DNA of 64,000 bases, taken from contig NC_135359.1 of NCBI RefSeq assembly GCF_051622035.1, forward strand, positions 22,664,001 to 22,728,000, read 5' to 3'. The DNA comes from Arctopsyche grandis. Its lineage: Eukaryota; Arthropoda; Insecta; Trichoptera; Hydropsychidae. Shown in pieces: positions 16,305-61,600 of the stretch. The notes beneath the pieces were generated by a model, which was given only the letters and a program-made list of their open reading frames with translations, had not been told where the DNA came from and made no database searches. Numbering within the stretch: position 1 is the first letter of the stretch; every line of letters starts with the position of its first letter. Made by a program: the position numbers and the translations under genes.

Positions 16305-16415
16305 CCCGGATAACCAGCGTGCCGTTCATTGTTCAAATTGTTAAAGGTTTGCCGAACCTTTTTTACAAAGCATTTACAACAATTGAACAATGAGTGGCGC
16401 GCTGTTTATCCGTAC
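16305..16415. repeat. Palindromic repeat family P, copy 1
   Basis: The core AAAGGTTTGCCGAACCTTT sits between CATTGTTC and GAACAATG. Outer arms CGGATAACCAGCGTGCC and GGCGCGCTGTTTATCCG are mutually complementary with few mismatches. The same core recurs at 26295 and 60205. It lies near the right end of the Tigger element. This copy lacks about 17 bases of the core present in the others. Confidence 0.8.
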
Positions 16416-16698
16416 TCTATGTAACATAACTACTAACAGCCACTTATCTGCTTAACTATGAGCGTTTTTCTTAATAAATAACGAGTATTAAAATTATGAA
16501 TCAAAAATTTGTGTCGTAAATATGATATTATATTCGAAACCAAGTCAAAATTTGATGATTCGGATTATCTGTGTTTTTCAATTATCCGTGCCCTTCCTCC
16601 CCAGCATTAGCCCGGATAATCGAGAGTGTACTGTATGTTTCTTTGAAGTCTGGAATATTTTATGGTTTGTTGAAGGAAACTTTTATAATACTCTAACT

Positions 16699-17472
16699 CA
16701 GCGGTTCCCAACCAGTGGCACGCCTACCACTATACACTATATACACATTTAATATTTACTTGGTGGTACGCGAAAAAAATCAATAATGGCGGACATTCAG
16801 GAATGAATGATTTACAAACATCAAAATAGAAATATTTTTTATATAATTAATAAACATTATCTTAATTCATCAAAGTCGACGTCAATATGTACAGTCGATG
16901 ATCGAAAATCCGTCATATAGTATTTGCACGGTAAGGAATTTGAAGGCAGGGTAAACGAAATGGATCTGTTTTGTTAAGAAATTTTGTGGAAATAAAGTTA
17001 TTTCCATAGTCACAATTATAAAATGCTCAAAGTTTAATAATTTATTTACTATTTCGTTATACTTCTATTACTGATAAACGGTTTTAATAAAAACACAAAC
17101 TTACAAAGTATGTACATACATATAATATATTTTCTTTTCTTGATTGAATCTCCTTACAAAATAAATTTAATAAGATCCTTATGCATGTTTCGAGGAACAT
17201 AGTTTTTTAAAATTCGATTCAAATGCTGCGAGATATATCCTTAAGTCCGCGATTAATAATTGTGAATTGGGACACAAAATTTCTTAACAAAACAGATCCA
17301 ATGCGTCTACCTTATCTTCAAATTCCTCACAATGTAAATACTATACATACATATATGAAATTACACTTGCAATAACAAATTTAATGAAATACAATCATTT
17401 TTATATGGTGGTACAATTTAGTGAAATGTATTACCAAGTGGTACGCGAGTCAAAAAAGGTTAGGAACCGCTG
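16699..17472. mobile_element. hAT-type MITE with exact 8-bp target duplication
   Basis: Ends are CAGCGGTTCCCAACC and GGTTAGGAACCGCTG, flanked on both sides by CTCTAACT (16691-16698 and 17473-17480). No transposase. Two internal segments (about 16913-16990 and 17271-17345) are long inverted copies of each other sharing GGATCTGTTTTGTTAAGAAA, so either the element is internally palindromic or a second foldback element is nested in it. Confidence 0.92.
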
Positions 17473-17721
17473 CTCTAACTAATAACTTTAATTTACTCCC
17501 AAAAAAGTTCAAAAGTTTAGTGTAAATATCAAGAGTATTATGCAAATTTATGTAAATCATAATTTCGTGAAATTACATGTCTTGAATTTCGTGCGTAATA
17601 ACATTATTTTCACTCAAGTTTCAATGCCTCGTAGAATATTGTTTTAATATGTAATAATAGTTTCGATTTTGATTTTCAAATTAAATAAAATTAAACCAAA
17701 AACATATGTATTTTATAATAA

Positions 17722-17727
17722 TTTATT
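17722..17727 (-). promoter_or_regulatory. Putative poly(A) signal of CSP-B
   Basis: AATAAA on the minus strand, about 34 bases past the CSP-B stop codon. In such AT-rich DNA the motif is frequent, so support is positional only. Confidence 0.4.
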
Positions 17728-17760
17728 TCTATAAATAAAATAAATACAACCAATCTCGAA

Positions 17761-18682
17761 TTAAGACAAGAATAATTTACCATACGAATTATTCGTATCA
17801 TATCTTTTTATGAATAGTTTCCAAACTTCTGGTTGTTTGAATAAAAGCGTTGCCATTGCATTGCCAGCTAATTGTTTTTCTTCTTCGCGACAATCTGTAC
17901 AATCATTGTCGAAAGCCTTCAAAATGGTTTCTGAAATTCAAATAAATAGTATCATTATTATTTACCACTCTATAAACTTTATATTTTTTATCTCCAATTT
18001 CTGTATTTCGTTTGTAGTATATTTTTTTCAATTTATTGATATTAAACAACTACCGGGTGAATTATTTAAAACTCTGTTTTTCATACAACTCATTTTTTGG
18101 TGACTTTAATATACATACATGGCTTTAATACTATGCAGTTATTAAAAAAAATATATTTGAATACATATGTATATATGTATACCTCCTAAATATAACCATT
18201 ATATACATTTTTTTCCATTACCCAGTTATTAAAGTAAAATATTTCCATTGTCCAGTTTAAAAGTTAAAATTCGATTTAATATACGCGAAGCACTGTTATG
18301 ATTAAAATAAATTATTTTTCATGCCTTAATATATAAGTTTAAAAATAACACATGAAAATACTACAAAAATATTGTAAACTAGTTAATTGTAATTTTGTTA
18401 TTAGGGATGTATAATTATTTTACCTTTAATTTTTAACAGCTGCACTGAGCATTTTCTATTCCACACAAGACAATCTACGTCTTCCTTTTCAAACTTCTCT
18501 TCCAAAAAGACTTTCTTGTGTTTTCTGTTATCAGCTACATCTTCAATGCCCAGCAATATTTCAGTTTCTTGCAAACTATCATCGTTTGTAGATTCTAAAT
18601 CGGGTATTGATTTTACTAAAGGAATCATCACAATCGCTAAGAGCAATGTCGTCGAAACCAACATGTTTCCCGTATGAGACAT
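17761..18682 (-). CDS. Divergent chemosensory protein (CSP-B), two exons
   Basis: Exons are 18424-18682 and 17761-17930, joined by a 493-base intron (donor GTAAAA, acceptor TTTCAG, phase 1), giving 142 aa. The ATG at 18682 is preferred. An internal Met (18664) is possible and a GTG lies further upstream. There is a signal peptide (LVSTTLLLAIVMIPLVKS) and an unusual acidic then lysine-rich region before the cysteines. The four cysteines keep exact CSP spacing: C71-x6-C78-x18-C97-x2-C100 (CLVWNRKC and CTDC). C-terminal block QPEVWKLFIKRYDTNNSY matches the family KPxxW...KYD motif. It lacks the common PDG after the second cysteine and has a longer N-terminus, so the ligand surface probably differs. 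A TATA box sits upstream. Exact cysteine spacing across the splice makes the gene model strong. Confidence 0.9.
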
Positions 18683-18753
18683 CTTGTACACTAGGTGAAC
18701 TGTCACGGTTGAAGGATTTTAAGACACTAACCGTGAATGTGGTGACATCCGAC

Positions 18754-18760
18754 TTATATA
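18754..18760 (-). promoter_or_regulatory. TATA box of CSP-B
   Basis: TATATAA on the minus strand, 72 bases upstream of the CSP-B ATG. It would place the start site near 18728, leaving a 5'UTR of about 45 bases. The motif stands in a less AT-rich stretch than average here. Confidence 0.6.
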
Positions 18761-19044
18761 TGTGTAGAATTGGTCAGATCAGATTCAACGTTGTCGCCGT
18801 TGGGCAATGGAAACCTTGCGCAGCTGGCTAAAAATTCATATTCCCTGTGTGGGGAGTTTTTATTTTTTAGCGATAATATTAAATATATAAGCCAAGAGCA
18901 AGAGTTCAATAGTCGCCAACGATGGAAGTCGAGACAAAACACGTTTATTGAATATATTGATAGAATTACAAGGACTATTTATTTTCATATGGAGAGAAAA
19001 GGTACCCATTTGGGTGTACAAAATCTCAAATTTATGTACATATG

Positions 19045-19981
19045 CAGTGGCGGACTGGCCATACAAGCGAACATGTCCGATGGCATGTGGGCCCCACTAT
19101 CTGTTAGAAAATATGGGCCCTCAGTAAAATTAAATAACTTTTGATCTATTTCACGTGTGTAAAAAATTATAGGATATTGCACTTTGGGACCCAAAGTTTG
19201 GGTATTTCAACAAAACAAATTTCTTACGATATACACAAACAACTAATACGGTCAACAAGGTACAACAAGGATCGGTTAACTTTTTTTATTAGGCTCGAAA
19301 AATAAGTTTCAACATTTGCGTGGGCCCTTTTGCCGGGCCCATTTCTAACCTCAATATTATGTATATACCAATATTTATGTAACAACTACCTACTGAAATA
19401 AAAATGGGAATAAACAAATTTCCGTGAATAATATAAACTGAATTCCTTAAAACTATTTTGTTAGGACGATTCATCATCAACCAGCGATTTAAATTTACTT
19501 CATACTTTTAAAATAACATTTGATTATACTTCGACGATATAGTGAGATTTAAATACACAATTTTAAACAGTTTCCGAATATAAAATCTATTCCTAATCTA
19601 GACACATCCATGTACATATGTATATAGAAATATAGGATAGGGGCCCCCTCCCCAAAATCCCGATTTTCGATTAATATTAATTGAAAATATTATGCATTTT
19701 TTTCAGGGACGTCGTTTGGGGGGGGCGTAGGGGGGATTTTCGTTGATCATGTGAAGATTTTTGGAAAAAAATTTTCGCCTGCGGCGCTTTTTTAGCTTTT
19801 TACATAATATTTTTTCAAAAATAAGCTTATTTTTTCATATTTTATAACTCAATAAGGTGTATGCAAAGAATATTTTCCATTTTTATTCCGATATAAAAAA
19901 GATTTTTTGAAAAAAAATTCAATTTGGGTGGGCCCCCTTTGACTCCTGGTATGCACTGATTTCAGTCCCAGTCCGCCACTG
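19045..19981. mobile_element. hAT-type non-autonomous element, 937 bp
   Basis: Ends CAGTGGCGGACTGG and CCAGTCCGCCACTG are perfect inverted repeats and are flanked by 8-bp duplications TACATATG (19037-19044 and 19982-19989). Internal G/C-rich patches (about 19640 and 19715) look like ends of other hAT elements nested inside. No transposase frame. It lies about 360 bases upstream of the CSP-B start. Confidence 0.92.
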
Positions 19982-19989
19982 TACATATG

Positions 19990-21290
19990 TATGTATAAAA
20001 ATTACATAAGAGTGTTGAGAATACGAAAAAGGGTAAACTTAAAAGGAATTATTAAAAAATATATATAGATCTTAGTTACATATACATATGTAATTTGTGT
20101 ATATACAGTTATAAAATTGTTTTAATAAATACGGGTGAAAAGTATTTTTTTATTATTTTTAAATGATTTTTATTATTACAAAATTATATTCACTATACAT
20201 CTTATATCTATTTTAATAGCTGCTGATCTACTGATCATTTTCTATCTTACAAGTTTATTTTATTTTTGTTAGTAATTATAGTATTATATTATTTTAATGT
20301 TAATGTGCAGCATAACAGGAAAATCATAAGAATTTAAAAGTATATAAATGCAAGCATTCGAAAAAATATTTTGTAGCACAACAAGCAATGTAAAATATCC
20401 TCATCAATTTTTATGATTCTAATTTGTTTTATTTGGAATACATAATCAATGTCAACAGTAAAATTCAATACGATGCATTTTTTGAATGCATCTTTGCAAT
20501 TTTGAATTAAAATTCAATACGATGCATGTGTATTGGTTTGAAATAAAAATAAAATAAAATTCAATACTACGGTGCATATTTGTACACATGTATGTATGTA
20601 TGTACTTGTAGAATACATTTTGAAATGGAAAAAAATAGTATCCATTTTAAATCCAAAATAAATCGATGTGATAAATGTGTACATGTTCATTTACGGTTAA
20701 ATAATTAAATATAAGTGGAGCCTTGTTAAGTAAAGGAAAGCAATTAAAATATTAAAAAATAATAGCGAAAACAACGTCAGCTTCATTGGTATATAAATTA
20801 ACGCAAATTCATTAAATACAATTAAATCCCCTAGCGTGTCTTGAAACGTGACATTTTAACAAGTTTTTGATATTGTCAGTTCGAATAAATGTATTGTAAC
20901 ACATTCGTTGTGTTAGTTCAGTCAGTATGGATATTCGAAATTATTTAATGTAATGAAAATAACTAAAAAAAGTTTATCCTTCTGCATCGAACAACTTTAA
21001 AAGTCATTGTACAATTATCATGATGAGAAAACATATTTCCATTATTATGGAGATGAAAATTTATTTTTATACGCGTTCAACTCGATCAACTTGACATTTT
21101 CAAGTTTTTTACAAAATAACTAATAAAAATTTAGTAATAACAACATAAAATTTAAATAAATTCGACGGATTGTTATTGTTTAGAGCTATTTTGATTTTTC
21201 TTATTTTTGGCTGAAAATTTCCACCAAATTCTTATAAGTATCAAATTATAAGTATCAAATAGATAAAATAAAAACTTTCACTGAAGCTTT
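19990..21290. other. No gene seen, AT-rich intergenic
   Basis: AT-rich. A short phrase, AAATTCAATACGATGCAT, is repeated at about 20461 and 20510, with a variant at 20568. No coding or RNA signal. Confidence 0.6.
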
Positions 21291-21294
21291 TATT

Positions 21295-21525
21295 TATATA
21301 TATATACATATATATTACTAGTGGTTTTACCCGGCTTCGCTCGGTATTTGTAATATAAATCGCTTAAACATGACTAACCTAATAGTAAACATTTTATTAA
21401 ATTTATTTGAATACTTTTATTTTATATAAATTTATTTGAATACGCATTTGTTTTTTTTATTAAATTGACTGTCACAAATAAACAAACATATATACATAAG
21501 CCTCTTTCAAAATTATATGTATACT
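21295..21525 (+). repeat. Repeat family R3, copy
   Basis: Begins TACTAGTGGTTTTACCCGG with the hairpin-like CCGGCTTCGCTCGG, then GTATTTGTAATATAAATCGC. The same start with few changes occurs at 30075. Preceded by a TATA run. Non-coding, class unknown. Confidence 0.6.
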
Positions 21526-21960
21526 AGAATCCGGCGACTTCGCCCCCGGGGATTTCGAGTCTTTTGAATCGAAATAAATCAAATCGGCGCCTATGAATCG
21601 AAAAAAAAAAATCGAATGTGTTTTCTACGAACCAACCAATCAAGGTTACATATATTCAAAGTATCTTTCGAAATTATATATGAGATTAAAATATTGAAGA
21701 GATCGAAATGACAATGTGCGGGTTGACGAATGGATAGCAAAAAAGTTCGGCGGAAAAAAGTCCTGGAATCGTCCCCGTCAGAATGTAAGATGGTGTGAGG
21801 AAGGCCGCAAGGCAGATAGATGAGTGGATGAAATTAGAAAAATGTCTGGTATGAAAAGTGTATGGAGCGAGATGCATAAGAGTTGCGGAAAATGAAGACG
21901 AATGGAAGAGCGTTGCCTTCATACAGCAGCGGATGGTAAATGGTTATAAATGGCCTCTAT
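21526..21960 (+). mobile_element. R3-type start followed by decayed RTE-like LINE end
   Basis: A second R3-like start (TACTAGAATCCGGCGACTTCG) is followed from about 21690 by a plus-strand relic of an RTE LINE C-terminus: WNRPRQNVRWCEEGRK, then VDEIRKMSGMKS, and in another frame RVAENEDEWKSVAFIQQRMV. Compared with the copy at 24.5 kb it is clearly older, with stops and shifts. Confidence 0.6.
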
Positions 21961-22017
21961 TTAATCGATCATTAAAAAACAATAAGTATTTAATAATATG
22001 AGCAGTAATTAAACCAA

Positions 22018-23060
22018 AATGATCAGTATATAAAACGAAATGATAAGATTTTAGTGATAAGATGCAGATGCAGGTGAACTGCTGACGCTACTGGCTTCCT
22101 GATTTTTGTTTTTTTCCCTTGAACTGGCTTTTTCTCGGATATGTGTTTGACCCGGCTTTAACAACCTGAACATCGTTCATAAATTAACCCCGTTCATTAA
22201 CCCCCTCTCCGTTTTCAACCCCCTCGGTCCTCGCCCCTTGCTCCAGGTTCAATTTCAGTCTCACGGTCTCAGTTCTCGCGTGTCTGTTAAATTAATAAAT
22301 ACCGACCCTAACAACCTAATCTTAAATGAATAGGGCCAACTTTAACTTAACCTAACCTAATCTGGCCCTTAAATAAATAAGTGCTGGCTGCTAAGATATG
22401 GTTTTTAATACCGTAATAAAATACCGACCCTAACAACCTAAACTTAAATGAATAAGGCCAACCCTAACTTAACCTAACCTAATCTGACCCTTAAATAAAT
22501 AAGTGTTGGCTGCTGAGATCTAAGATGGGCGACGCCCTATCTTCTAACTGTCAACAATTATAATTTATTTGGTTTTACTGATCATTTATATTATTTAACT
22601 GATCACTTATTTAATAAATTACTGATCATTGATCTTAATTTTTTACTGATCATTAATCTTAATTTTTTACTGATCATTTTAGTCATTTTTAGCCGACCAA
22701 ATAATAGGTTCCCAAATTAAATGGCCAGTTACAAGTCAATTTCGGTAAGTATATAAATCAATTTTCGGCCAATATTTTATTAACAAAATGGTCAGTATTA
22801 TATTATTAAATGTCAGTATAAATAACAAATGGACAGTATAAAACAAATTGGAAATCTGACGTACATTCGCCAGAACAAATATGTACATACACAGCAGTGC
22901 CTGTTGGATGAAGTTGTCTATCAATATCGTACCAATCTTGTGTTGATATCAATAAAAAAGTTATATTGGCCATCCGTTAACATAAAACTTACCTTTTAAG
23001 ATTAATACTGACCATTTAATATAAATACTGACCTCTCGTATGTAAATACTGACAAAAATA
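22018..23060. repeat. Array of ACTGATCATT-like motifs in both orientations
   Basis: At least a dozen copies of TACTGAYCATTT or its reverse complement AAATGRTCAGTA occur: 22018, a run at 22576-22680, then 22719, 22786, 22807 and 22826, and reversed at 23003, 23024 and 23045. They are spaced irregularly and separated by AT-rich DNA. The cluster lies about 365 bases from the 3' end of CSP-C. Origin unknown, perhaps a decayed satellite or repeat internal to a mobile element. Confidence 0.5.
22299..22530 (+). repeat. Two tandem 122-bp units
   Basis: ATACCGACCCTAACAACCTA begins at 22299 and again at 22421, and the units stay similar through AGTGYTGGCTGCT. Each contains CTTAACCTAACCTAATC, close to the insect telomere unit CCTAA but too short and degenerate to be telomeric. 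Confidence 0.8.
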
Positions 23061-23424
23061 GACTAAAATACTTACTAGTAAAATTCAAGCTGTTGTAAAA
23101 TGATGACGATGATGATTATTAAAATATCTGTTGATATGAACAAGGTTATAATCCAAACACAATATTATTTTTGTCAATAAAATTTTTATTTTGTTTTATG
23201 CAAATTAAAACTTCGTACAACTTAATTTATTTGCCATTTTTAGAGTTGGTGAAAATATTAAACTTTAGCGACATCTATTATTCATAATGAAATATTATTA
23301 TGCATTTAAAACAACAGTAAGGCACAAATTATATCGTTAAAAACATCACACTAACTCAAATATTTGAAACAATAAAAACTATTATAAATTACTTGATTGC
23401 ATATGAAAACCATTTATGGTGAAA

Positions 23425-24084
23425 TTAGTCAACAGACTTCTTTTCAGAATCATCACTGTCATTTTCACCTTCAGAAGATTTGTTTGCTTTCAGTTTTAAA
23501 TATGCTTCTTTATACGATCCGCTTGGGTTGTATCTGAAAAATAATTTATAATATACATATAAATAAAAAATGATTTCATCATAAATTCTGTCATTTATTG
23601 AGAACATCTATGGTTACTTTGTTTCAAGCTCTTTCCACCAGTCAGGCTTGTTGTCAATTAAGTAGTACATCACCATTTTAGAACCGATATCCTGTTTTTC
23701 GCTACACTTTTTGCAATCGTTGTCGATCGCATCGGGTAGATTTTCTGAAACGTTTTAAAAGTTAGTTTTTTAAGACACAGATGGCGTGCAGGGTGTGTTT
23801 ATTAGTCATTTTAAAAATTACTATTTATTATACATTGTACGTATGTACTTACTTTTCAGTTCGACTCCGTCTGGAGTACAGCGTCCCTTCTCTAATAAAC
23901 AATTCACATAGTTCAATAGTAAACGGTCGCTGTGCAAGATTTCATCAATATCAAGATCATCATATTTGGTTGTATAAGTCACGTCGTCGGCTCCTTCTTT
24001 GGTTTCATTTCTCGCACTTACCACTGAAGCAGTCAATAAAATCAACGATATGGCGCAGAAAATATTACTTCTATGAACAAACAT
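23425..24084 (-). CDS. Chemosensory protein (CSP-C), three exons, acidic tail
   Basis: Exons are 23853-24084, 23618-23744 and 23425-23533, giving 155 aa. A signal peptide ([17 protein letters not shown]) precedes the family block [20 protein letters not shown]. Cysteines are C62-x6-C69-x18-C88-x2-C91 ([12 protein letters not shown]), then [20 protein letters not shown]. Intron 1 (donor GTAAGT) is at the conserved CSP site, phase 1 after LK. Intron 2 (donor GTAACC, acceptor TTTTCAG) falls inside the lysine codon of ETKYNPSG and is not usual for the family. Without it the frame would stop at once, and splicing restores the conserved Y motif. The C-terminus extends beyond the CSP fold with a serine/acidic tail ([17 protein letters not shown]). 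It is likely secreted. Ligand unknown. Start chosen at the first ATG after the TATA box. Confidence 0.92.
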
Positions 24085-24164
24085 ATTGAACAATATGAAG
24101 TTAAGATAAATCGTCAAGATCGAAAGACGTCACACGACTAGAAAATCTGTAAAAATTTTCAGCA

Positions 24165-24171
24165 TTATATA
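24165..24171 (-). promoter_or_regulatory. TATA box of CSP-C
   Basis: TATATAA on the minus strand, 81 bases upstream of the CSP-C ATG, in the same relative place as in CSP-B. Confidence 0.6.
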
Positions 24172-24449
24172 CGCGTTTTCACATACACTTATGCTTATTT
24201 CCCAATTACAGTAACAACAGTATTATTACTGCGGAAAATATGAGGGTGTGTAGAAAATAACTTTGTATTTTTTATTATATTCACATTTTTTTTAATTTAA
24301 GCTGATTTTAGAATATAATATTATAGATGGAATGTTAATATTACATATGTATATACATATGTATGTACATGGAATGGGTAGTATTGACCTCTAATGACGC
24401 ACATATATTTTTTTTATATTTAATGACTCATATTTAAAAAAAAAAAGTG

Positions 24450-25110
24450 ACGATGAATTAACATCATCATCACAATCATCTACACCCGCTCACCATCCAA
24501 CGCTGGATTAAGGCCTCTCCAATACGCTTCCACTCGTCTCTATTTTGCGCAACTCTCATCCATCTCGCCCCAAACATTTTCCTAATGTCGTCTACCCATC
24601 TTCCCTGCGTTCTTCCTTTTACCATTTTGCATTCCTCGGGTACCATTCTATGGATTACTTCTTTTGTTGAGCTTTCGTCCATTCTTCTAGCCACGTGGCC
24701 CACCCATTGCCATTTCAATCTCTTCAATTTATCCACTATATCCACTACCCTTGTCATACTTCTCACCCACGTATTCCGTTTCCTGTCTTTCCTCGTTACG
24801 CCAAGCATACAGCGTTCCATACGTCTTTGAGTGCATGGGACTTTGTGTAGCATCTTGGCGTTATGTCTAAGTTTTGCATCCATACGTCATCACTGGCAAA
24901 ACTCATTGATCGAAGATCTTTTTCTTCAGGCAGAGTAGCACTTTTGATTTAAAAACAGCATTCATTCCTCAAAATATACTCCATCCTTATTTCATACGTC
25001 TCTTTATTTATTCTTCTTTACTACCGGAGATGACAATTATTTGACCTAAATATAAATAATTATTTACTACTTCTACTATTTTATCATCTAATAAAATGCT
25101 ATCAGGCATG
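24450..25110 (-). mobile_element. RTE-like LINE 3'-end fragment, copy 2
   Basis: Minus-strand protein similarity starts with ILLDDKIVEVVNNYLYLGQ (about 25090), the usual RTE phrase after the RT domain. It continues with VPCTQRRMERCMLGVTRKDR, KRLKWQWVGHVARRM and RWVDDIRKMFGARWMRVAQN. About 135 codons at the end are open, while the upstream part has stops and shifts. The 3' end is followed by a GATGATGATG tail. It sits about 365 bases upstream of the CSP-C gene start. Confidence 0.85.
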
Positions 25111-26290
25111 CCATTGCTTTAGTAGTATTGTTACTACTATTGAACATTAGAATATTATCTCATTAAATAAATTTAATTTAAATGTCAAAAATTAAAATGT
25201 GTTCTGTAGATTTTGATATACAAATTAAATCTACATACATATATATGTATGTAGATAGATTCAACTATATATTTTGTTTTCCAATAAATACAATTTACAT
25301 ATGTGCATGGAATGTTTTTATTGTTATATAAATAATTGTTTGGAATTTTGGAGAAGCTTCAATCAATTTTCAAATACATAACTGCTAAATAGCACCTATT
25401 GACAATAAAACGATTTAAAGTTCTATTTATTTTGACTACATTGAATAAATTTAAAGATCATATCAGATACAATGTCTAAATAGCGTGCAAATATGTATAT
25501 ATTTATATAATATATGTATGTATTAGTTTCTAATAGCATCCGAATACATGTAAATATATAGTAAATATATTCATATAAATATATTTTGACTATATTTTTA
25601 TACTGTATATGGACACGTTTTTTTTCAATAAAATACGATCTTGTTATTATTCTTAACCATACCCCATTTTTTGCAATTGTTGCATTACATACATATATTG
25701 AATTGCTTTTTCAAGGTAAATATGTATAATACGCGAATACAACATGCATGCTTATTGACTACCTATATTATATGAACATAGTTTTGCGTAAAGAATCCAA
25801 GCACATGATATATATACATACATACATACATACATATATTATATTAAGAAAACTGCAAATTCATGGTTTTTTATACAAAAAGTTTTCAATAGTCATCAAC
25901 ATTGTCAATAATAATTACACTCTATATTAATACTTTTTATAAACTTGCTTTTACATTTGACAAAAAGCATTCATGGCCATTGTACATATTATTTATGTTT
26001 GTTGGATCTTCTTTGCAAAAATACCGTACAAAGTTTCTCAAACTTTTTCCTTGTATTTAATTACACTGAGCAACAAAAAATCACATTTTTTAATAACGAT
26101 ATTTATTAAACTTGACACACTGAATTCGAATACGAAAATGATTTTTGTTAGTTTCTTCTCGTTTATGAGATATAACCAAGTGTTTAAAAAACAATTTACT
26201 GATTTTCGGCTTTTAACTCAAAATATTTTTAATAATTTTTCTATTGATTGTGATTTTTTTGCTTTAAAATGCGTATATATAATAACTAGA
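25111..26290. other. No gene seen, AT-rich intergenic
   Basis: AT-rich with TACATACATA microsatellites (for example 25815-25840). A 119-codon frame at 25973-26332 runs into the palindromic repeat at 26295, is low-complexity, and is not accepted as a gene. Confidence 0.6.
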
Positions 26291-26294
26291 GACC

Positions 26295-26422
26295 GGAATC
26301 TGAAGGGGCTGTTTATTGTTCAAAGATTGTAAATGCATTGTTAAAGGTTTGCCGAACCTTTTTTACAAAGGATTTACAACAATGGAACAATAGGCGGCAC
26401 GTTTCCGGCCCCTTCAGATTCC
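26295..26422. repeat. Palindromic repeat family P, copy 2
   Basis: Outer arms GGAATCTGAAGGGGC (26295-26309) and GCCCCTTCAGATTCC (26408-26422) are perfect complements. The core again holds AAAGGTTTGCCGAACCTTT with TTGTAAAT and ATTTACAA around it. The core matches copies 1 and 3, but the outer arms differ in sequence from those of copy 1. Confidence 0.88.
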
Positions 26423-26559
26423 AACCTATGATAATAACAATAAATAAAATTTAATACAATAACTAATTAATTTATTTGTAGTACCATTAGAGAGGATATT
26501 TGTGGAAGAGACGTGCCAGGGCTTAGATTCTAGTTGAATTTCTATAGATATTGGCAATA

Positions 26560-39039: not shown

Positions 39040-40327
39040 GTAAGGCAATAATTAACAACCGATAATTATAATTATTATTACTGTGGACGCTTAATAATAA
39101 TTAATGGCGTTTCCGAAAAGTCTACTTTGGCTCAGCTTTTAAATTCAAAGACTTTTTTATTCTTGTTGATCGGTAATATTTATTCCAATTTTATTGTGCT
39201 ATTGTCGTTTTCACACTTAGATCATCGTGACTTCACTGTCATGACGATTGGTGTCAATTTTCATTTCTTACCTGGCGACATGATGATATTTTTCACACAA
39301 TTATCATTTTATGAATGATTCTTGTATGAAACGTGTGAAAAATTTTTAAAAGAAATTTATTACTTTTGGAGACTTGAACGCACGGTTTCTTTCCAAACCC
39401 ATATATGCGAAATAACAATATACATATTATAATATAATACTTTTTGTTTTCAATATAATTAGAGAATTATGTTAAAGCTTTAATAATAATATCCATTAAA
39501 CTGACAGTGTTTGTTTAATAAATTTATTTTGTATTTTCGTATGAAATTGCTACTCAGTTTTCAATGCCATAAGCATAAATCTTAAATAATATATTATATA
39601 TAAAAAATCAATTGATTAGCCTTAATCTCACAAGTGGAAAAATCTATGACCTAGTTTTGCATTGTTGTGTTTACTTTGAAATCTGCCATTATGCATTTTT
39701 AAACGTGACCGTAGACGATAGCTTCTCATATAAATAATTACAGGTTTTGTAATCATACGACGGCTGCTGGTTGCGTGTTTAATTCTAGATGCAAAACGAT
39801 TTTATGACGTTAGATACTTAGAAAAAATATTAATAATAAAACATTGTAAATTTATTGAAATATGTGTGTGCTTGCGCTGCAATGATGAAATATATGCATG
39901 CGATATTAATTTGAATATAATATCAATTAAAAATGCTTTGTTGCGAAAAAATAGACACGTTAAACCACTTTTGAACAGGTCGGGTTGTTCGTCTGGTGAA
40001 TATGTTGCAATTAATTATATGTCAAAAGCTCTGAAATCGAATGGTTCGTTTTTATATTTAACAGTAACTTGAATATTTTTTGAAAATAAAATCATTTATT
40101 GAATAAAACAATTTATAGTCCTTTAATTCTTTCATTTGTTTAAATTTTTAATATATTATACACGATAAACCATGTGAGAATTTTCATCATACCTAATGCG
40201 ATATTTCTAAATTCATTTGGAAAACTGTTGTTTAAAATAGAATTCTGTAAAACTCAACAGAATTTTACATTGAATGTATATTATAAAGTATTTTTTAATC
40301 TTTCAGATAAACCAAATTTCATCCAAG

Positions 40328-40717
40328 ATGAAGGGTCTGTTCGTTATTGCTTTTGCTTGCGTGGTCGCTTCGGCCATCGCTGCTCCCAAAGAAACCTACA
40401 CAGATAGGTTCGACAACATTGATCTAGATGAAATCCTTGCATCCGATCGTCTTCTCAAGAACTACGTAGACTGTTTATTGGACAAGGGTCGATGCTCTCC
40501 CGATGGCAAAACCCTTAAGGACACCTTGCCCGACGCCCTCGAAAACGAATGCTCCAAGTGCACAGAAAAGCAAAAGTCTGGCGCTGACAAAGTTATCCGT
40601 CATTTGGTAAACAAGAAACCAGACCTCTGGAAATTGCTCGGAGCCAGGTACGATAAGGATGGCGAATACGTCAAGAGGTACAAGGATATCGCCACCGGAC
40701 ACGGAATCACCGTTTAA
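40328..40717 (+). CDS. Chemosensory protein (CSP-D), coding region uninterrupted
   Basis: A complete 129-aa insect CSP. The signal peptide (MKGLFVIAFACVVASAIAA) is followed by YTDRFDNIDLDEILASDRLL. Cysteines are C49-x6-C56-x18-C75-x2-C78 (CLLDKGRC, CSKC), then NKKPDLWKLLGARYDKDGEY. All canonical features and length are present, so a secreted hydrophobic-ligand carrier is expected. The frame runs straight through the position where the other CSPs here have an intron (KTLK/DTLP), so that intron is absent. An intron is instead predicted in the 5'UTR. Codon use is clearly richer in C-ending codons than in the other CSPs, as in highly expressed genes. Start chosen at the ATG in AAGATGAAG just after the acceptor, because upstream in-frame codons are AT-rich UTR. 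Confidence 0.97.
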   Translation: MKGLFVIAFACVVASAIAAPKETYTDRFDNIDLDEILASDRLLKNYVDCLLDKGRCSPDGKTLKDTLPDALENECSKCTEKQKSGADKVIRHLVNKKPDLWKLLGARYDKDGEYVKRYKDIATGHGITV

Positions 40718-40899: not shown

Positions 40900-43350
<2,451 letters not shown>

Positions 43351-51173: not shown

Positions 51174-51615
51174 TTAGATGTAAAATGTAATTAATCATCG
51201 TTATCAAGTTAAAACTAAATTCATGGGATGTTTTTTTTTGAGATAACGTATTGCATAGGGTAATTTTTTGTGTCTCTTTAAATGCTTATCTTATTTCAAC
51301 CTACATAAAAATATAAATTTCGTATTTAACGTTTTAACGTATTCGGCAATCAATTGATGGATATCAGCAATTATTTCGATTTAGTATATGATTTTCGGTT
51401 TTAGAGGAGCATCACCATAGTCCAACAGCTTTGATAAATCACAAAAAAAAAAAAAATTGTTATGCTCAATTTGAATGTTATGCTAAGACCGTCTGCCTGT
51501 TTACTTCAGACAGAAATGTCAGTTGATTGGTATGCTTTGGTGTGTTTGTTTGTCGGCGAATTGGTTATTTTTTATCTGGAGAAATTAAATAGTTTTACTG
51601 TTGGAAGTTGAAAAG

Positions 51616-52516: not shown

Positions 52517-52794
52517 AATGCCTTCAATACAATTCTCACAACAATGACTTGCAATATTTGCTAGATTTATTTTCATGTTTATAGGTCTATTTTATGAAAT
52601 GCATTTCCTATATTAGTTTTTATTAGTAATTAAAAATTAAAAATGGAAATCGATTCTAATTATATATGTATCATAATTAAATTTAAAACTGAACTGTGGC
52701 TGTGATTGAAAATACACACGAGACACGTATGTATTTTTATTGTCGTCGTCAATTGAAATTCATGATATTATATAAATAATGATTACATATATCG

Positions 52795-53020
52795 ATGACT
52801 CGGTGTACTGATATTGTATGTCCATTTCTGAATTTGTATCAAATTTTAAGTTTGTAGAATAATTCAGGTTTTTCCTTTCAAGTTAATGTGGTATACATAA
52901 AATACCTTGAAAGGAAAAACCTGAATTATTCCAGCATCTATGTACATACAAACTTAAAATTCGATACAAATTCAAAAATGGACAAACAATATATGTATGT
53001 GCACCAAGCCATCGATATGT
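52795..53020. repeat. Long palindrome downstream of the heme transporter
   Basis: Arms of about 100 bases: TTCAGGTTTTTCCTTTCAAG (52865) pairs exactly with CTTGAAAGGAAAAACCTGAA (52907), and the outer parts (ATGTCCATTTCTGAATTTG and its partner near 52968) also pair. It is probably a foldback MITE. If the mRNA extends this far, it would place a long hairpin in the 3'UTR. Confidence 0.85.
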
Positions 53021-53024
53021 ATAT

Positions 53025-53750
53025 CCATGCAGTTGACAAAGGCTATGCTTTATATTTAGGTATTTAATTATTAAGAAGTCAAAACATTCTACAATTTAAG
53101 GTCAAATACAATTGTTACGAATATGTAGGTTATATTTTAATTTGCTGTTTAAGCTCACATCGGTTTCTAGATAATTTAAAACAAAATAGATAGTCTTAGT
53201 CATATTTCTTTTTGTTTCATATTATGTATTTTCATTTTGTTGTGCTTACTCACTACTTATCTACACGCTATGTCAACAGTACAGAATGTTGTATAATTAT
53301 TATATTATCAATTTTATTATTGTGCTGGGCAAAGGATATATGTATGTAAATATAAACATCGTAACACAGGCATCGTCTTTCACATTACGATAGTTTGCCC
53401 TCGTTTTGTTTACACAAAGAAAATTCATTATATTTACTGTGCGTATTTTTTATAGTACATATTAAAAATATAACGAAGATCATCTGCAATTTTACAGATA
53501 GGTATACGACTATTTTTATAATATAATAATATATGTAGCACTATGCAAATATATTGCATGATTTGGAATTTTATATGCAGTATTGTTTTGGATTATTTGT
53601 ATTTTGTGTAAATTTTTCAATAAAAAAGAAATTGAAAAATATAACGTTTTTCATTAGAAAAATCATTTCAACACATACATGTGTATGAATATGTACATAA
53701 GCTATCTTGATTATTCAAAATTGATTAACAATTTCTTTATCTACATATGT
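53025..53750. other. No gene seen, AT-rich
   Basis: AT-rich DNA. An AATAAA near 53619 could serve the heme transporter mRNA but is far from the stop codon. Confidence 0.5.
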
Positions 53751-54051
53751 ATTATATGTACGTAGTAACAATAAATGAAGTTTTATGATCATGAGAAAAT
53801 TTTAAATTGTGATTTTGACTGATTCGAACTCGGAATCGATCACTGATCACGTTTTCATGATCTAGAAAAAATGTGCATGTGTGTGTGTTTGTGTCATGTA
53901 CAAAGGTCTCCTCTTTTTGTAAGTTTTTGAATTCAATTATCTCCCAAGCCGCTAACCGAATCTGGCTGAATTATTTTTACATGTAATAGAAATTATAAAT
54001 TTTATACCCTAATATTTTTCCTAAATCGGAAGTAGTACTTTTACTCTAGAG

Positions 54052-54270
54052 CAGAGCATCGTAACCTCTGAATATTTGCGGCACACATTGTTTACGACTC
54101 GTAGAGTTTGTCAGCTACGTACATATGTACTTCATCGGCAGTCGCTAGTAATTCCGTATATGCATAGGAACAAAACACTAACTAACATCGGTTTTCTCCC
54201 TCACACGCATTAGGCTGAAGTGCTGTTCAGGGAACACATATTACCGCGGTGCACAGGTTACGATGCTCTG
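54052..54270. mobile_element. hAT-type MITE, 219 bp
   Basis: Ends CAGAGCATCGTAACCT and AGGTTACGATGCTCTG are exact inverted repeats. Flanks are both CTCTAGAG (54044-54051 and 54271-54278), an 8-bp duplication that is itself palindromic. Inserted in R1. Confidence 0.93.
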
Positions 54271-54654
54271 CTCTAGAGAAACAAAGTTTTTTATGTTTTT
54301 CCAAGAAACCTTTTAGTTGATTGAACTGAAATTTCTTATTTAGAAGTTTAAGCATAATACCAAGTTATATATAAAATTTGGTGAGCACCCGTCGACCAGA
54401 AGTGGCAGTTTACTCTTGTTCGATTTTTCTTCCACTATTTTTTTCGACCCCTAAAACATGTGTGCTCTTCACGAAAAAATTCAAGTATAATTCTTGTATC
54501 AATGTGATGAAAATAATAAAAAGTCATTAAATTTATTTAGCCGGAAGTGGGATTTTTTAATCTTAGAAAGGTCAAAAATGTTGTGACCACGATTCTGTCC
54601 ACACCCCACACATGTGCGCTCTTCACCAGAAAATTCAAATATAATGCTTGTAAA

Positions 54655-54900
54655 AATCCTTCCTACCTACTATGTCACCACTATTTGAAATTTGATGGAT
54701 GTACAATAAAAATTTATGTACAATTCATAGATGTCTCGTTAATTTGCGAGTTTTTTCAGTGTCTCGCAATTCAACGACTTATAATAAAAAAAATGCTGCA
54801 TTTGTATTTGTAATTGGCCAGGAAGGCGCATTGGGATTTACCTGTAAGGCCTTCCTGGTATATATGTAAAATAAAAATAAAAATAATGTAATGAAAATCA
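54655..54900 (+). mobile_element. 5'-truncated SINE with type-1 tail
   Basis: Contains CCTACCTACTATGTCACCAC and CATAGATGTCTCG from the post-core region, then the tail stem-loop GGCCAGGAAGGCGCATTGGG with AAGGCCTTCCTGG, and TATATATGTAAAATAAAAAT. The head and core are missing. Confidence 0.8.
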
Positions 54901-55400
54901 TTAAAAAAAAAATTATTTTCATTTTAGATTAATAAAAAATGTTGTGACCACACGAATTTTTGCACACTCCTGAACGTATTGAGCTGAAAATTTATATTTG
55001 TATTCTTTATGTACTAACTTAGAGTTGATAAGATTTTGGTTAGAGTTCGTAAATCGGAAGTAGTAATATTTTTTAAAACAATATTTCATTATTTTATTTT
55101 GACCTTTCAAATTATTTTGATCGTCTTGATATTTAATGTGTATAATATTTATAGTGATTTTAAGTAATAAAAAAAATTTAAACAAAATCCCACAACCGGA
55201 AGTCGAACTTTTGTCTTGTGTAAGTTTCCCTATATTTGCGCCCAATTTGTATCAAAAATGCTGTTATAGCTATTAGTATTTCATAATGCTGCCGGTATGT
55301 GTGAATGTGTCTGTACGCTTCAATATCGAATTTTGTTTTGTGACCTTCTTACATTCCTCAAATTCATAGATAAAGTCATGGGTTGGTCACATGCGAATTT

Positions 55401-56420
55401 TTTTAATTTAAAGTCTACACATAAATATGCCAAATAAATATTTGCGAATAGCAATGTCAATTATTTTCTGTTCTTGATTGATTGACGTTGATACGGAATA
55501 CCACACAGCGCAGAATCCACTTCCGCTATATTTCTCATCATCGCAGCAACATAACCGTTAATCAATCCTGCTCATTTGTGACTATATGTACATACATATG
55601 TACATATATACACGTTAGCTAAGTCTTGCAGACATTATTTAGTATGCCCGAGTCTGTTTACTGATTGATACCTCGTTTTATGTGATAAAATGTAATTTTC
55701 GATTGAATGAGTGATATAAATTCGAATTGCCGGTCGAAGTACATATACATATTAGGGCACTAGCAGTGAGATAGCATTGAAGCAGTTTGCTGGAATGAAT
55801 CTTGCGTTGTTTTAAAAAAGAAGAGCTATCACATTGGAATTAAACGAAAACTTGTGTGAACATCAAGTACCGCAAGTTCCGATCACGACCGTTCCAGAAT
55901 ACAGTAAGAACTATGTACTATCGCCATCGTTTCTCGAAAACTGTTTTAATAAGATTAAATAGACGATCTTTCAATAGTTTCGTTGTACTGTAGTACAGAA
56001 AATACGACCGATTGCTACTAAGCCTATCTTTTATATCATACTTTTTTAGCATTGATAAGAAACACTATACTGCCGTATGGTTTTGATATTACAAAAAAGT
56101 CACTTGTGAAGAGTCATATTTATTTAATAGATTTAATTAATAATTTATTGTTAAAACTCTTTCCTTATGTACATAGTTGCCCTATTCGCATTGTTTACTA
56201 CTCGTGCGAAAAACTAACTTGATTTAGTTGAATCAAGTACGCCCAACGTGCTATGGAGTAATTTATGGGTTCAATTCCTATATCAGGGCATACAAATCAA
56301 CCTTATAGCATTTAATGTATTTTTTTAAACCCTGAATTTTAATCATCTACCTACTAGTAAATTTTGAAAGTTTAAAAGACTACCATGTGAAGATCATTTC
56401 ATCGGTATAATTTGTCTGAT
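55401..56420. other. No confident gene
   Basis: Less AT-rich patches (55480-55560, 55780-55930). A possible B-box GGTTCAATTCC at 56268 hints at a SINE head. A short frame with KRRAITLELNENL near 55820 followed by a GTAAGA was considered as an exon but lacks an upstream acceptor. Confidence 0.4.
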
Positions 56421-56424
56421 ATGT

Positions 56425-57005
56425 TCACAGTTATCCATAGTCCATTGCTTAATAGTTGAGAGAGTCCAGTGGAAGTTTCTCAGATATACTGATATGATAG
56501 TTTACGATCGCTATCCTTGGCTCTATCCTAGTGCCTGCCTGCTGGGAGTAATATGTAGGTTATAATTCCCTTGAGTCAGGAAGTAGAGTATATCTGGGAA
56601 AGCATTTTTACAAGACAAGTTTGGTGAACAATCTTCAAAATCTTGCAGAATTGATTTTAAATGTTCTCAAACCAACTCGGGTACATTAGATGCAGTTTGT
56701 TCTTTTCTCCGGCGACACGTACCAATTTAATGGTTTCGTCGCCTGTTGTAAGGGGCATCAAGCTTCTCAACCAGATTAGCTTGAATTTTTTAAATGTTAA
56801 TTACGGTCATCTGGTTGGCCGATTGTTTAATTTGAGATCGTAAATGTGTTCTAATATTGTTATTGTTTTTATATATTGATTTATTTGCTATATATTTTAT
56901 CTTTTCTTTGTTTATTGTCTTATTTTGTTTTTACATTCATATTATTCTTATATCTTTCATTGTGCTTTGCTCTAGTGATGATTTAGAGTAATTCTATAAT
57001 GTCAC
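56425..57005 (+). mobile_element. Decayed LINE 3' end, same family as 28 kb
   Basis: Protein traces align in order with the C-terminus of the 28 kb LINE: ERVQWKFLRY (about 56456), YPWLYPSACLLG, VYLGKHFYKT (about 56590), and MVSSPVVRGIKLLNQI (about 56727) to GRLFNLRS. Frame changes and a stop separate the blocks, so it is much older than the 28 kb copy. Confidence 0.85.
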
Positions 57006-57019
57006 AATGGCAAATCTAT

Positions 57020-57455
57020 AATTTTATTTTTATTTTTACATAGATATATATCAGGAAGGCTTGACAGGAAGACTCCAATGCGCCTTCCTAGACATTTAAT
57101 TACAAACAATGCAGCATTTTTTATTACATAAATCACTGTATTTCGAGAAGCTGAAGAACACGAAATTAACAATTAATTAATTAATCCATTGAGAAATCTA
57201 TGATTTTTAGACTTGTACATACATTTTTACAAATTATGCATACATTAAATACAGAAGATTTGTGACAGCAGTTTTTTGCTAATTTTTTAGGAACTGTTTC
57301 AACAGTAAAATCAGATAAATTGGCAAACTCTGATAAGAAACGATCGAATTGGACTCACAGATATCTAAGTCTAACTAGCAGTATTAAAGATTAGCCCGGG
57401 ATCGAACCCAAAAATCTCTTGGTGTTAAACATAAACGCAACCACTGAGTCGTACG
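57020..57455 (-). mobile_element. tRNA-derived SINE with type-1 tail
   Basis: Read on the minus strand: head GACTCAGTGGTTGCG (A-box) and GGGTTCGATCCCGGG (B-box, 57396-57410), core CGATCGTTTCTTATCAGAG, then AATTTATCTGATTTTACTG and GAAACAGTTCC, then the tail with GGCGCATTGGAGTCTTCC and AGCCTTCCTGATATATAT. Full head-core-tail order is preserved. Confidence 0.88.
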
Positions 57456-57539
57456 TACGTAGGTCAAATGTAATGTAATGTAAAATTCTGAACTATTGTG
57501 ATGCGATGAAGTTTTCAAAGTATTTTTAACAGTGTCCAA

Positions 57540-58060
57540 AAATTAGTTGATGAGTCATTTAGGTATTTGCCGCGAAAATGTGCGTAGTAATTTGCATTTT
57601 TTGCCGGTCGACTAATTCACGTGCGTCGTGAGCATGAAAGGCGAGGCCCCAGAACCGTCCGTTTGCGACCCCTGAACAGTTAAAGTTAACCGTACCGACT
57701 AACTGGAGTTTGCAGGCCGGCCAGTCGCACTCGACGCTCTTCCACGCGAACACACCTCGCCGGTACGATCGTCGATCTCATTTCGCTATTTCGCCAATGC
57801 ACGTACCTAGTAGACCCGTTAAAATGTCCACTTTCAAATTTCGAAATCTGCGCGTATTCTGACCGTGAAAACTGTGGGAAATCCGCGGAAAATCTCCCAT
57901 CATCCCCGAATGCGCGTGGACATCGTTATCTGCCAACCGCAACTAGTTGGATTTACAATTTGATTTTCACGCTCGTTAATGTTTGTCTATCGGAAAATAC
58001 TATTCGCTTTCGTGTAAAATTTCATTTTGATAGTGATTTTATGGGATTCATAGTGTTAGT
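57540..58060. promoter_or_regulatory. CpG-richer segment, possible promoter region
   Basis: Clearly higher G+C and CpG than the window, with GGCCGGCC, CGCCGGTACGATCG and many CGs, and no matching repeat elsewhere. No frame is convincing (the minus frame at 57559-57753 has no recognised domain). It may be the promoter or first exon of a gene lying to the right. Confidence 0.35.
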
Positions 58061-58237
58061 TTTCGACGAAGCCTAATTTAATATGTCTTATTTGTTTGAA
58101 TTCCACATAGTTAATACGAAAAAAAAATAGGTGATGAATGAAGTAATTATTTTTAAGAATACCTTGCCAAAAATATCAATTAAAATCGCCCATATCACAT
58201 TATTAAATGTGATTTTTATATACATAGAACAGTCCAA

Positions 58238-58680
58238 GTGTACATTGCGTTCGTTTATGAACATACTAGTTTGTTCAAACACGAACCAATCTGGTTAGTT
58301 ATAGTGTACACAAAAGAACAAATTGACAAACGAATTATTGTATATACATACATATGTATGTATTTTGTTCATGTACGAACTATTAGGCATAAGTTAAAGT
58401 TTTCTCAATCGTTTTTCCCATCCTCTATGTTTATCCTGGGTTGCAATATATTTTTCCCGTTATAGCGGAAACGGGAATCATAGCAAGGATGTAAAATGGT
58501 TTTCATAGGATTTTCCTTTGAAATATTTGACATTTTGACAGCCAAAAGTTTCATGTGACCCCTTGTGAGTCTATTCAAAGATAGCTTTTGGCTGTTAGCG
58601 CTTAAACTAAAACCAATGGTTCATGTATGAATAAACTATTATGTTCACGAAAGAACCAGAGTTAACACTTGTATAATATG
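58238..58680. repeat. Interspersed repeat family R4, copy 2
   Basis: Collinear with 32575-32960. Outer phrases CTAGTTTGTTCAAACACGAA and, reversed at the other end, ATAGTTTATTCATACATGAA show that it has inverted terminal repeats and is likely a MITE. Confidence 0.72.
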
Positions 58681-58684
58681 TACT

Positions 58685-59130
58685 ATCAGTCTGATGATGC
58701 AGTATGGAATTAACCCACATTCAATTCAAACACAAGTAATTTTTAAATATGTGCAATTTTATGAAACCTTTTAGTGATGAAAACTTATAAAATTTATCAA
58801 TAATTAGTACATGTATTATTGCCACTCTTTTATACGCTAATTTACACAAAAAATATTCATTAAATTTTGTATGTAAAAAAATTGTTCATATAGTTAAGTT
58901 CCAATCGGCAAAACTGCGCCATATAATTATTATGAACATTGTAATTATAGTATACCTTCATCTAGCTCGCGTTTTTAATTAAAATATGTTGTAGGCTGTG
59001 AGGTTAAAGGTTGCATAGTGTAAACTGAATGGCATAGTTCATTTTCGGGTGTGAAAATCTCTTTTTGTTAGAGTAGTTATGGTTAAAACTGCCTAAATTT
59101 TTCCACAGACCTGCGTGCATATTATATTGT
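58685..59130. other. No gene seen
   Basis: AT-rich at first and more balanced after 58980. No frame or repeat recognised. Confidence 0.5.
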
Positions 59131-59139
59131 ATGGTAAAA

Positions 59140-59298
59140 AATTGAAACAACAACGAACAGTCTATCAAACGAGACGCTGCCAATTATCCCGTTCGAAAAG
59201 ACTGAGATCTCCCACATTGTCCATTGTGTACGTTTTCATCGTCGTCATCAGCGTCGTCGTGGTCTTCGCAGTGGCCGCCACAATTTCGCATTAATCAG
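59140..59298 (+). other. Possible 5' exon with strong splice donor
   Basis: A GC-richer stretch with CATCGTCGTCATCAGCGTCG ends CAG at 59298, followed by GTAAGTG, a perfect consensus donor. The left limit is arbitrary. It could be a 5'UTR exon, or a coding exon with an upstream start outside the stretch, of a plus-strand gene continuing beyond the window. No acceptor or partner exon was identified here. Confidence 0.4.
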
Positions 59299-59784
59299 GT
59301 AAGTGAAAATATTCAAATCTCGTCGTGATTCCGGTGTGCGAGCGAAACGCGATCTCTTTTTCACGAAACGAATAATTGCACTGTGAACCGTTTGCTTTCA
59401 TCTCCATGAAACTCATTTGAACCTGCTCGTTACGATGTTTTACGCAAGCCGAAGTACTCGAGAATTCAATTTTTGATAATACTAGGAAAATCGTTACCTT
59501 ATGTAAATTCTGTACTATTACAATTCACATTACGAGTAGATATGGATCATTAATTTGTAGAAAATATTTAACATATCGAATACGAGTTTTTGATTCTATT
59601 ATTCAAAGGTCAAATGGAATCATTTTTCTTCCGCATACTTGGTAGTATCATCAATCAAATTGTGCGTACATATGTACTATTCATTTCTGCAACTTTGCTA
59701 AATATTTAAACGCATTCTTCATTTGATGATGTTATGCGATAGAAAGGAAATATGAGCAATGATTTTATGTCTAAAAGCGTTACT

Positions 59785-61600
59785 GCTTCAAGATATTTTT
59801 TTTTTCAATTTACCACGCAGCAAAATCTTCTGGGAGCAGTAAAATCATATCTACATAAATGGCCTTCTTATCTGAATTTTTGAGCACGCTGCTATAGAGT
59901 GCCCCATTATTAACAATGAAAAACCTATAAGCATCGCATTTGTTCTTAAGGTTATGTGTTTATGCAATAATATGACAATCCAAATAGTTTCATAGCAGTA
60001 ATATTTCTGTAACGCCTTTTCGTTGAATCTTATGCTAAAAACACACTCGAAAGTACAGCACGGGACGCGTACGTGGACTCCACAGTGAGAGGCGTATCTT
60101 CGCACTGAAGGGGTTGTCCATACCGAGGTCGCACATAGAAAGGAAATAATATGAGCAATAATTTTATAGGTAAAAATTAGTCACCGGAGCCTGAGGGGGC
60201 CGTGTATTGTTCAAAGGTTGTAAATGCATTGTTAAAGGTTTGCCGAACCTTTTTTACAAAGGATTTACAACAATGGAACAATGGATAGCACTGTGACTAT
60301 CCTACCTCTAGTAATCATTATATAGGTAAGCATTACTACTTCATGATTTTTTTTTCTATTTAAATATTTTGCTGCGTTATTGCATTATTAAATTGCATTA
60401 TTAAATACTTTATCAACTGTAAGGCACAGACTCATTATGAATCGTATGGCACGGCATGCATAGATAGACTCTAGCTGTGATGGGCGTATCCTCATATCAT
60501 TGTTAATTCGTACGGTCTTATTTTTTTGAATAGATTCTCCTACATTTCTTCAAATATGGAAATCACCGTTAGCGATCACTGTCAATACAAAGATAAAATA
60601 CTATCGAAAACACCCCAGGGGATGATTTTTCAGCGTCCCTCAACTCCTTTGAGTGTTTTCGGTGATATTTTATCTTTGTATTGACATATTTGAAGAAATG
60701 TAGGAGAAATTTTTCGAAATAATAATTGTTCAACGAATCAACAATGATGATATGCGCATCTCAGCTGGAGTCTACCTAGGCATGCCGTGCCGTAATATCA
60801 AATGTGTGCGCCTTAAGGTTGAAAAAGTATTTGATGATACAGATCATCGTCTCAAAAATTCAGATAACACGGCCATTTAGATATCATTGTACTGTTGCTA
60901 AAAGATTTCGCTGCGTGCTAAATAGAAAAAAAATCTTGAAGCAGTAATTCTTTCACCAATGAAATGATTGCTCATATTATTTCCTTTCTATGTGCGGCCT
61001 CAGTATGGGCAACCCTTGCTGTGAGAAAGTACGCCTCTCACATTTGGAGCCCACGTCGCGTCCCGTGCCACACTTTTGAGTGTGTTCTTACCATTAGGGC
61101 GAAAACACATCGAGTGGGACGTGGTACGTGTTTTTTTTTTAGATACTTTCAAACATACGAGACCCCTAGCCCATGTTCATGGTACACAGTCCCAAAAATC
61201 ACCCCCTGGAGTGTTTTCGGTGATATTTTATCCTCGTTTGACAGTGATCGATAACGGTGAATCCTATATTTGAAGAAATTAATGAGAAACTTGTCGGTTG
61301 CATATGGATATGCATAAAAGTGCGACCTCCCAAACATATTCATTCGGCACGTGGACAGCGGGAAGCCATACCATTCAGTGTGCTTTCGCCCTCAATGAAA
61401 AGGCGCCGCAGAAATATTCTTACCATGAAACTTTGGATTGTTATATTATTGCATGAACACATAACCTCAAGAACAAATACGATATTTAAAGGTTTTTCAT
61501 TGTTGATAGTGGGCATTCATTTTATGGCAACGTGCTCCAGTTCAATTAAACAATGGTTCTGTCAAGAAGAACCTTGAAACACTTGAAAATGTTCTCCGAA
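59785..61600. repeat. R2 element with large inverted repeats
   Basis: Sequence from 59785 (AGATATTTTTTTTTTCAATT) reappears inverted near 60930, and both sides continue with GGAAATAATATGAGCAAT or its complement. A second inverted pair is centred near 60640 and shares ATTTGAAGAAATGTAGGAGA and AAAGATAAAATA. From 60960 to 61600 a further partial copy runs on. Related to 9290-10110. A foldback DNA element or nested set of them. No transposase recognised. Confidence 0.7.
60185..60300. repeat. Palindromic repeat family P, copy 3
   Basis: The core AAAGGTTTGCCGAACCTTT with TTGTAAAT and ATTTACAA and ATTGTTC/GAACAAT (60205-60282) matches copy 2 almost base for base. The left arm (CCGGAGCCTGAGGGGGCC) resembles the copy-2 left arm. 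The right arm is unrelated, so this copy is no longer paired outside the core. It lies inside R2. Confidence 0.85.

Follow-up and report, generated by a model that had tools for sequence, protein, structure and literature searches.

We analysed a window of 64,000 nucleotides (nt) from the trichopteran Arctopsyche grandis (contig NC_135359.1, positions 22,664,001 to 22,728,000 of the forward strand), in which a preliminary description had noted three copies of a palindromic repeat with a shared core and differing outer arms. All three are members of a single family of near-palindromic, non-coding DNA transposons, classed as miniature inverted-repeat transposable elements (MITEs), and the striking pairing of their arms is explained as transposon anatomy. 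Our full reading, to which we give a probability of roughly 80%, is that this is a near-palindromic non-autonomous MITE, most likely of the hAT superfamily, that is moved in trans, and in which half-elements have been joined and blocks of arm sequence have probably sometimes been copied.

A near-palindromic MITE family

The 19-nt core, AAAGGTTTGCCGAACCTTT, is present exactly three times in the window (starts 16343, 26343 and 60234), confirming the near-identical cores that had been reported. With up to three mismatches allowed there are six matches, each place being counted on both strands, compared to 0.02 expected from shuffled sequence. Across the 475.7 megabases (Mb) of the genome searched, we found 3150 exact cores (1608 + 1542) and, using the pattern CCGG..core..CTCTA, 1865 whole elements. 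Most elements are 133 base pairs (bp) long, and those of the subfamily to which copy 2 belongs (subfamily B) are 144 bp. The family is thus short, non-coding and of high copy number; its outer arms are terminal inverted repeats, and a duplication of fixed length lies at both ends, all as expected of a MITE.

This target-site duplication is 8 bp long, with the consensus NTNATNAN, and was called, with at most one mismatch, at 108 of 124 distinct core places, at least two of the calls (L010+ and window copy 3) being misplaced. Of the 108 calls, 105 have T at position 2, 107 have A at 4, 105 have T at 5 and 98 have A at 7; G at position 1 (47/108) and C at position 8 (63/108) give a weak GTNATNAC tendency. 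A short non-coding element with a high copy number and 8-bp duplications is best understood as a MITE, moved by the transposase of another element. The preliminary description had allowed that the arms might be simply flanking DNA; this is excluded, as the arms sit inside the duplications.

The two ends carry the same motif, consisting of TA, six variable bases, GGA, A at position 17, G at 20, GC at 22-23, G at 25, and ATTGTTC at 29-35. In 59 distinct 133-bp elements, positions 1-2, 9-11, 17, 20, 22-23 and 29-35 are paired in at least 56 cases (position 22 in 55), positions 6-8 and 14-15 are paired in at most 8, and positions 12, 13 and 16 are mostly unpaired.

All elements, arms and cores in the window are given on the + strand. 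Copy 1 (16300..16419) is a 120-bp member of what we call copy 1's clade, and has a 13-bp internal deletion in its left stem. Its flanks, GACATAAC and AACATAAC, agree at 7 of 8 positions, with three additional bases preceding the right one. The left arm, the terminal inverted repeat CGGATAACCAGCGTGCC (16307..16323), contains module ATAACCAGCG of type P6; the right arm (16396..16412) reads backwards as CGGATAAACAGCGCGCC and contains module ATAAACAGCG; and the core, at 16343..16361, forms the hairpin loop region. Copy 2 (26287..26430) is a 144-bp element of subfamily B (L009) with a perfect 8-bp duplication, ATAATAAC, at 26279-26286 and 26431-26438, and with its core at 26343..26361. Its left arm is GGAATCTGAAGGGGC (26295..26309), and its right arm (26408..26422), the exact complement, contains an 11-nt block that is absent there from the 133-bp subfamilies. 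Copy 3 (60178..60310; core 60234..60252) is a 133-bp element with mismatched arms and a decayed duplication, GTAAAAAT and GTAATCAT, agreeing at 6 of 8 positions. Its left arm, GGAGCCTGAGGGGGC, is identical to that of copy 2 at 12 of 15 positions, and its right arm is of a different type, P11. The arms are therefore as first described for copies 2 and 3, whereas those of copy 1, said to be complements, are complementary at 15 of 17 positions. Copy 1 is located inside an apparent decayed element at 14397-16633 that we take to be pogo/Tigger-like, with ends CAGTATACTCTCGATTATCCG (14397) and CGGATAATCGAGAGTGTACTG (16613) and DDE_1 matches in broken frames (E 6e-9, with a second match below the cut-off at 0.006).

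Arm complementarity across the genome

The preliminary description proposed that the arms change but stay complementary, and suggested selection for a hairpin needed for transposition or small-RNA processing. The folding of the window copies is in line with this idea: all three out-fold nearly all of their shuffles, with RNA z-scores of -10.3, -8.6 and -3.4 for copies 1 to 3 (equalled by 0, 0 and 1 of 200 shuffles). To ask how general this is, we considered an unseeded sample of 89 elements with assigned arms and scored the agreement of an element's own arms over 15 positions. The 15-nt variable block of each arm was typed by prototypes (P1, P4, P6-P11, P13 and others); single-linkage clustering lumped nearly all modules.

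Own-arm agreement is bimodal, at 13-15 of 15 positions in 15 elements and 5-10 of 15 in the other 74, so that the two arms of an element are either dissimilar or nearly identical. Subfamily B, with exact or near-exact arms in 10 of the 89, fits hairpin selection, but continued complementarity does not hold as a rule when only 15 of 89 elements match at 13 or more positions. The largest subfamily (29/89) has mismatched arms and lies 1.5% from its own consensus (21 of 29 used), and the matched subfamily of copy 2 lies 1.6% from its own (8 of 10 used), both values being low estimates since an exact core was required. Given that the most abundant subfamily is mismatched and yet about equally little diverged, matched arms are not needed for amplification.

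Shuffling the right arms among elements leads to the same view. Without subfamily B, own-arm agreement is 4.10 of 10 variable positions, compared to 4.23 after shuffling (reached by 8872 of 10000 shuffles), and unique arm pairs have no excess over shuffles either with subfamily B (3385/10000) or without it (7697/10000). Some pairs in the 133-bp elements have changed on both sides (positions 12, 18, 19 and 26 among others, chiefly 18 and 26), but the 59 distinct elements have 44 double-changed cells versus 44.9 in shuffles, and 127 of 500 shuffles reach the observed covariation score. For the variable module only, the numbers are 42 versus 43.4, and 568 of 1000 shuffles reach the score. In the inner stem, position 36 is paired in 25 and position 49 in 18 of the 59. 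The window copies do fold as hairpins, and the 133-bp elements covary no better than shuffles. The compensatory changes that a selected hairpin would leave were not found; an exception is copy 1's clade, which has an excess of matching made up of whole blocks.

This clade, selected by a sequence from the inner right part of its members (found 124 + 121 times), speaks for hairpin selection. In 24 of 39 assigned elements, at least 12 of 15 positions match between own arms, above what shuffling produces. This is also one of several results that do not sit easily with our reading. The clade's excess is reached by 0 of 10000 shuffles by element and by 107 of 10000 on 25 unique pairs, a test that is confounded by common descent, the differences there being whole blocks. 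Over all 89 elements, own arms agree at 4.75 of the 10 variable positions versus 4.33 with shuffled right arms (reached by 6/10000), an excess that is due to subfamily B. Finally, the 16 type-level arm combinations exceed shuffles, at a fraction of 0.009 of 20000, or 0.057 without P1. Taking both sides together, we consider it very unlikely that selection for a hairpin keeps the arms complementary. A selected hairpin or small-RNA precursor is unsupported by the shuffle and position-wise tests, and at gathering scores the window has no Rfam match. More generally, a palindrome with changing but complementary arms is no necessary sign of a selected hairpin.

Matched arms, chimeras and a probable exchange of ends

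Where arms do match, they match as blocks. Copy 1's clade has three matched forms, ATAACCAAGG/ATAGCCAAGG, CCCAGAGCG/CCCAAAGCG and ATAACCAGCG/ATAAACAGCG, as well as a common chimera of left ATAACCAGCG with right CCCAAAGCG (10 elements). The form carried by copy 1 is the rarest, its right arm ATAAACAGCG being shared with a single relative (L172) in the clade sample. Each of the three different arm sequences of the clade is found on both sides. In subfamily B (10 of the 89 unseeded elements, and also 10 of 100 left arms listed), the arms are equal over 15-16 nt, and the right arm resembles one of type P9 into which, following GGA, 11 nt have been added that equal part of the element's own left arm. 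That matched arms recur as whole blocks suggests block exchange, and perhaps copying from arm to arm, instead of hairpin selection. Arm-to-arm repair, another of the explanations first offered, thus gains partial support from the block in subfamily B and the two-sided arm sequences of the clade. In addition, CACC, the bases of the left arm, is present at positions 5-8 in 3 of 36 P11-type right ends.

Other observations count against arm copying. The 328,700 bases sampled contained no B-type element whose right arm lacks the extension, and L121, in which an unextended right arm has B's GGAAACG letters, has a left arm of type P4. A related element adjoining L112 also starts with TAGACACCGGA, which means that the CACC change need not derive from an element's own left arm. 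Exchange between copies is an alternative source of what looks like arm copying.

A different history is that matched arms are the old state, in which lineages with matching ends gave rise to mismatched elements by recombination in the shared centre, with no copying from arm to arm. Chimeric types are plentiful, as this history would have it, and modules also occur matched, for example as P7/P7, P8/P8 and P13/P10. Moreover, a composite MITE whose ends come from different subfamilies, AgaP2-P12MITE, is known, according to the available text of PMC1562414. The right arm of subfamily B is harder to accommodate: it combines an arm of another type with a block from the element's own left arm, exceeds its relatives by 11 nt in length, and is more readily understood as a product of copying. 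We regard this history as a serious possibility, at somewhat less than even odds. We judge inheritance and renewal about equally likely as the main source of matched arms. Doubtful, but worth stating, is the stronger idea that the MITE regularly renews its ends: whenever one end had changed or been swapped, arm-templated repair would rewrite the other, and the new matched pairs, arising repeatedly, would found subfamilies such as B and the three types of the clade.

Chimeric elements speak for an exchange of ends. Modules P7, P8 and P6 are on the left side in some elements and on the right side in others. In chimeric types L048 and L122, the duplications agree at 7 or 8 of 8 positions, so these types have probably moved since they formed. 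Chimeras also involve a second MITE family, X, which has the same kind of ends and the same target as the core-bearing family. Family X, with internal TTTTTCCAGGAA, or chimeras with it, was seen at L007:2064-2229, L017:988, L025:800 and L152. Elements that are half X and half core-bearing family are present at L007 and L199; in those of L199, the right side carries the left inner half of the core-bearing family, inverted, as judged by eye. L199 (G000:C3:34883215-34884100) is a head-to-tail array of one core-family element and four X/core-family chimeras, with a period of about 165 bp, a single 8-bp CTCATAAC at each of four junctions and CTCATTTT at the final end; it looks like a satellite in the making.

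From the arrangement of these sequences, we infer the following mechanism, including the occurrence and direction of arm copying. A transposase acting in trans would bind the MITE ends, with the two-sided end motif as the putative binding site and the intervening bases free to vary. The inner stem would be palindromic by descent. Half-elements could be joined by recombination, gap repair or template switching via the shared palindromic centre, an exchange made possible by the close similarity of the two halves to one another and to thousands of further copies. During repair, the outer block would probably sometimes be copied from arm to arm. The outcome would be subfamilies with unlike arms, the chimeras, together with some with matched arms. 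With the same core, many end modules and mostly intact duplications, the family offers a natural series on how non-autonomous transposons swap or renew the ends that transposases recognize.

Superfamily and relation to known elements

The superfamily is probably hAT. The duplications follow the hAT rule nTnnnnAn, with T at position 2 in 105 and A at position 7 in 98 of 108, which is the 8-bp target preference given for the hAT element Hermes in the available part of PMC10368747.

The element ends are less clear. For hAT ends we assume the rule YARNG, which is followed by the TAAAG and TAGAG ends but not by TAGTC, the start of the commonest subfamily. This is a point against the assignment to hAT, as are the searches for a partner transposase. 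We inspected 20 hAT loci, out of 150 scored matches and 2335 first-look candidates, and none had these ends, with ends identifiable at about half of the loci. Three of five hAT reading-frame families have other ends, and two are without visible ends within about 1 kilobase (kb). Among 15 more hAT C-terminal flanks, about half have other ends and the rest have none of the MITE's kind except for a nested family-X element (L152). The ends visible at hAT loci were CAGTGGCG.., the presumably Buster-like CAGTGCC.., and TAGGCTTG. A search for Hermes-type DNA-binding domains gave no matches but was uninformative, since controls likewise gave none. At G000:C2:30.7-34.4 Mb, copies of a 628-amino-acid hAT reading frame and of copy 1's clade are both listed repeatedly along nearly 4 Mb, which looks like the repetition of a large segment.

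We think it improbable, though less so than hairpin selection, that the family belongs instead to the P superfamily. Elements of this superfamily have 7-8-bp duplications and a palindromic target, which is GTANTAC for Galileo (PMC4168063, in the text available), a feature reminiscent of the weak GTNATNAC tendency here, and the genome has P-type transposases (20 matches). Three P-type loci among these matches do not have the MITE's ends within 1.7-1.8 kb on each side, and one has ends CAGAGAAGTG.. with the duplication GCTCTATG; the lack of a P-type partner likewise weighs against our reading. The P-superfamily locus L156/L157 (G000:C6:27172700-27177900) has 24-bp inverted ends, CAGAGAAGTGTTATACAATAG.., and the 8-bp duplication GCTCTATG. 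On balance we infer a hAT transposase.

Elsewhere in the window are an intact OS-D (chemosensory protein) reading frame of 147 amino acids (40274-40717) and the longest inverted repeat (42032-42207), which is mostly an AT dinucleotide tract unrelated to the MITE. No viral contig had an exact match to a 34-nt stretch searched for. The family appears to be new, while its kind is already known, composite and chimeric elements being established; in a literature search for which searching by species name was not possible, we found such elements but none recognized as this near-palindromic MITE family.

Among known hairpin elements, we take Made1 to be mariner-related. Made1 and other MITEs that can yield microRNAs are, like the elements here, very short and foldable as a single hairpin (PMC1784062, available text). 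The family described here differs in its 8-bp duplication and varied ends. Hermes resembles it in the 8-bp target preference and in having imperfect inverted ends with asymmetric inner sites, but is autonomous and about 3 kb long, as far as the accessible portion of PMC10368747 goes.

The closest parallels concern mixed ends. In the portion of PMC1562414 at hand, the P-MITEs of Anopheles gambiae are also non-coding with 8-bp duplications, and AgaP2-P12MITE combines ends from two subfamilies. However, these elements have P-type ends, their central region, unlike the whole-element palindrome here, is unrelated to P, and AgaP2-P12MITE is one composite family, whereas here there is a swarm. Galileo, a Drosophila element of the P superfamily, is likewise rich in inverted repeats and has subfamilies and chimeric copies, though it is much longer (PMC3573991 and PMC4168063, in part). 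Twelve of 170 Galileo copies are given as chimeric and attributed to recombination and conversion (PMC3573991, same portion). The 7-mers flanking Galileo chimeras are unlike (PMC3573991 and PMC4168063, as excerpted), while chimeric types described here, such as L048 and L122, are still flanked by 8-bp duplications that match, and were thus probably mobile once they had formed.

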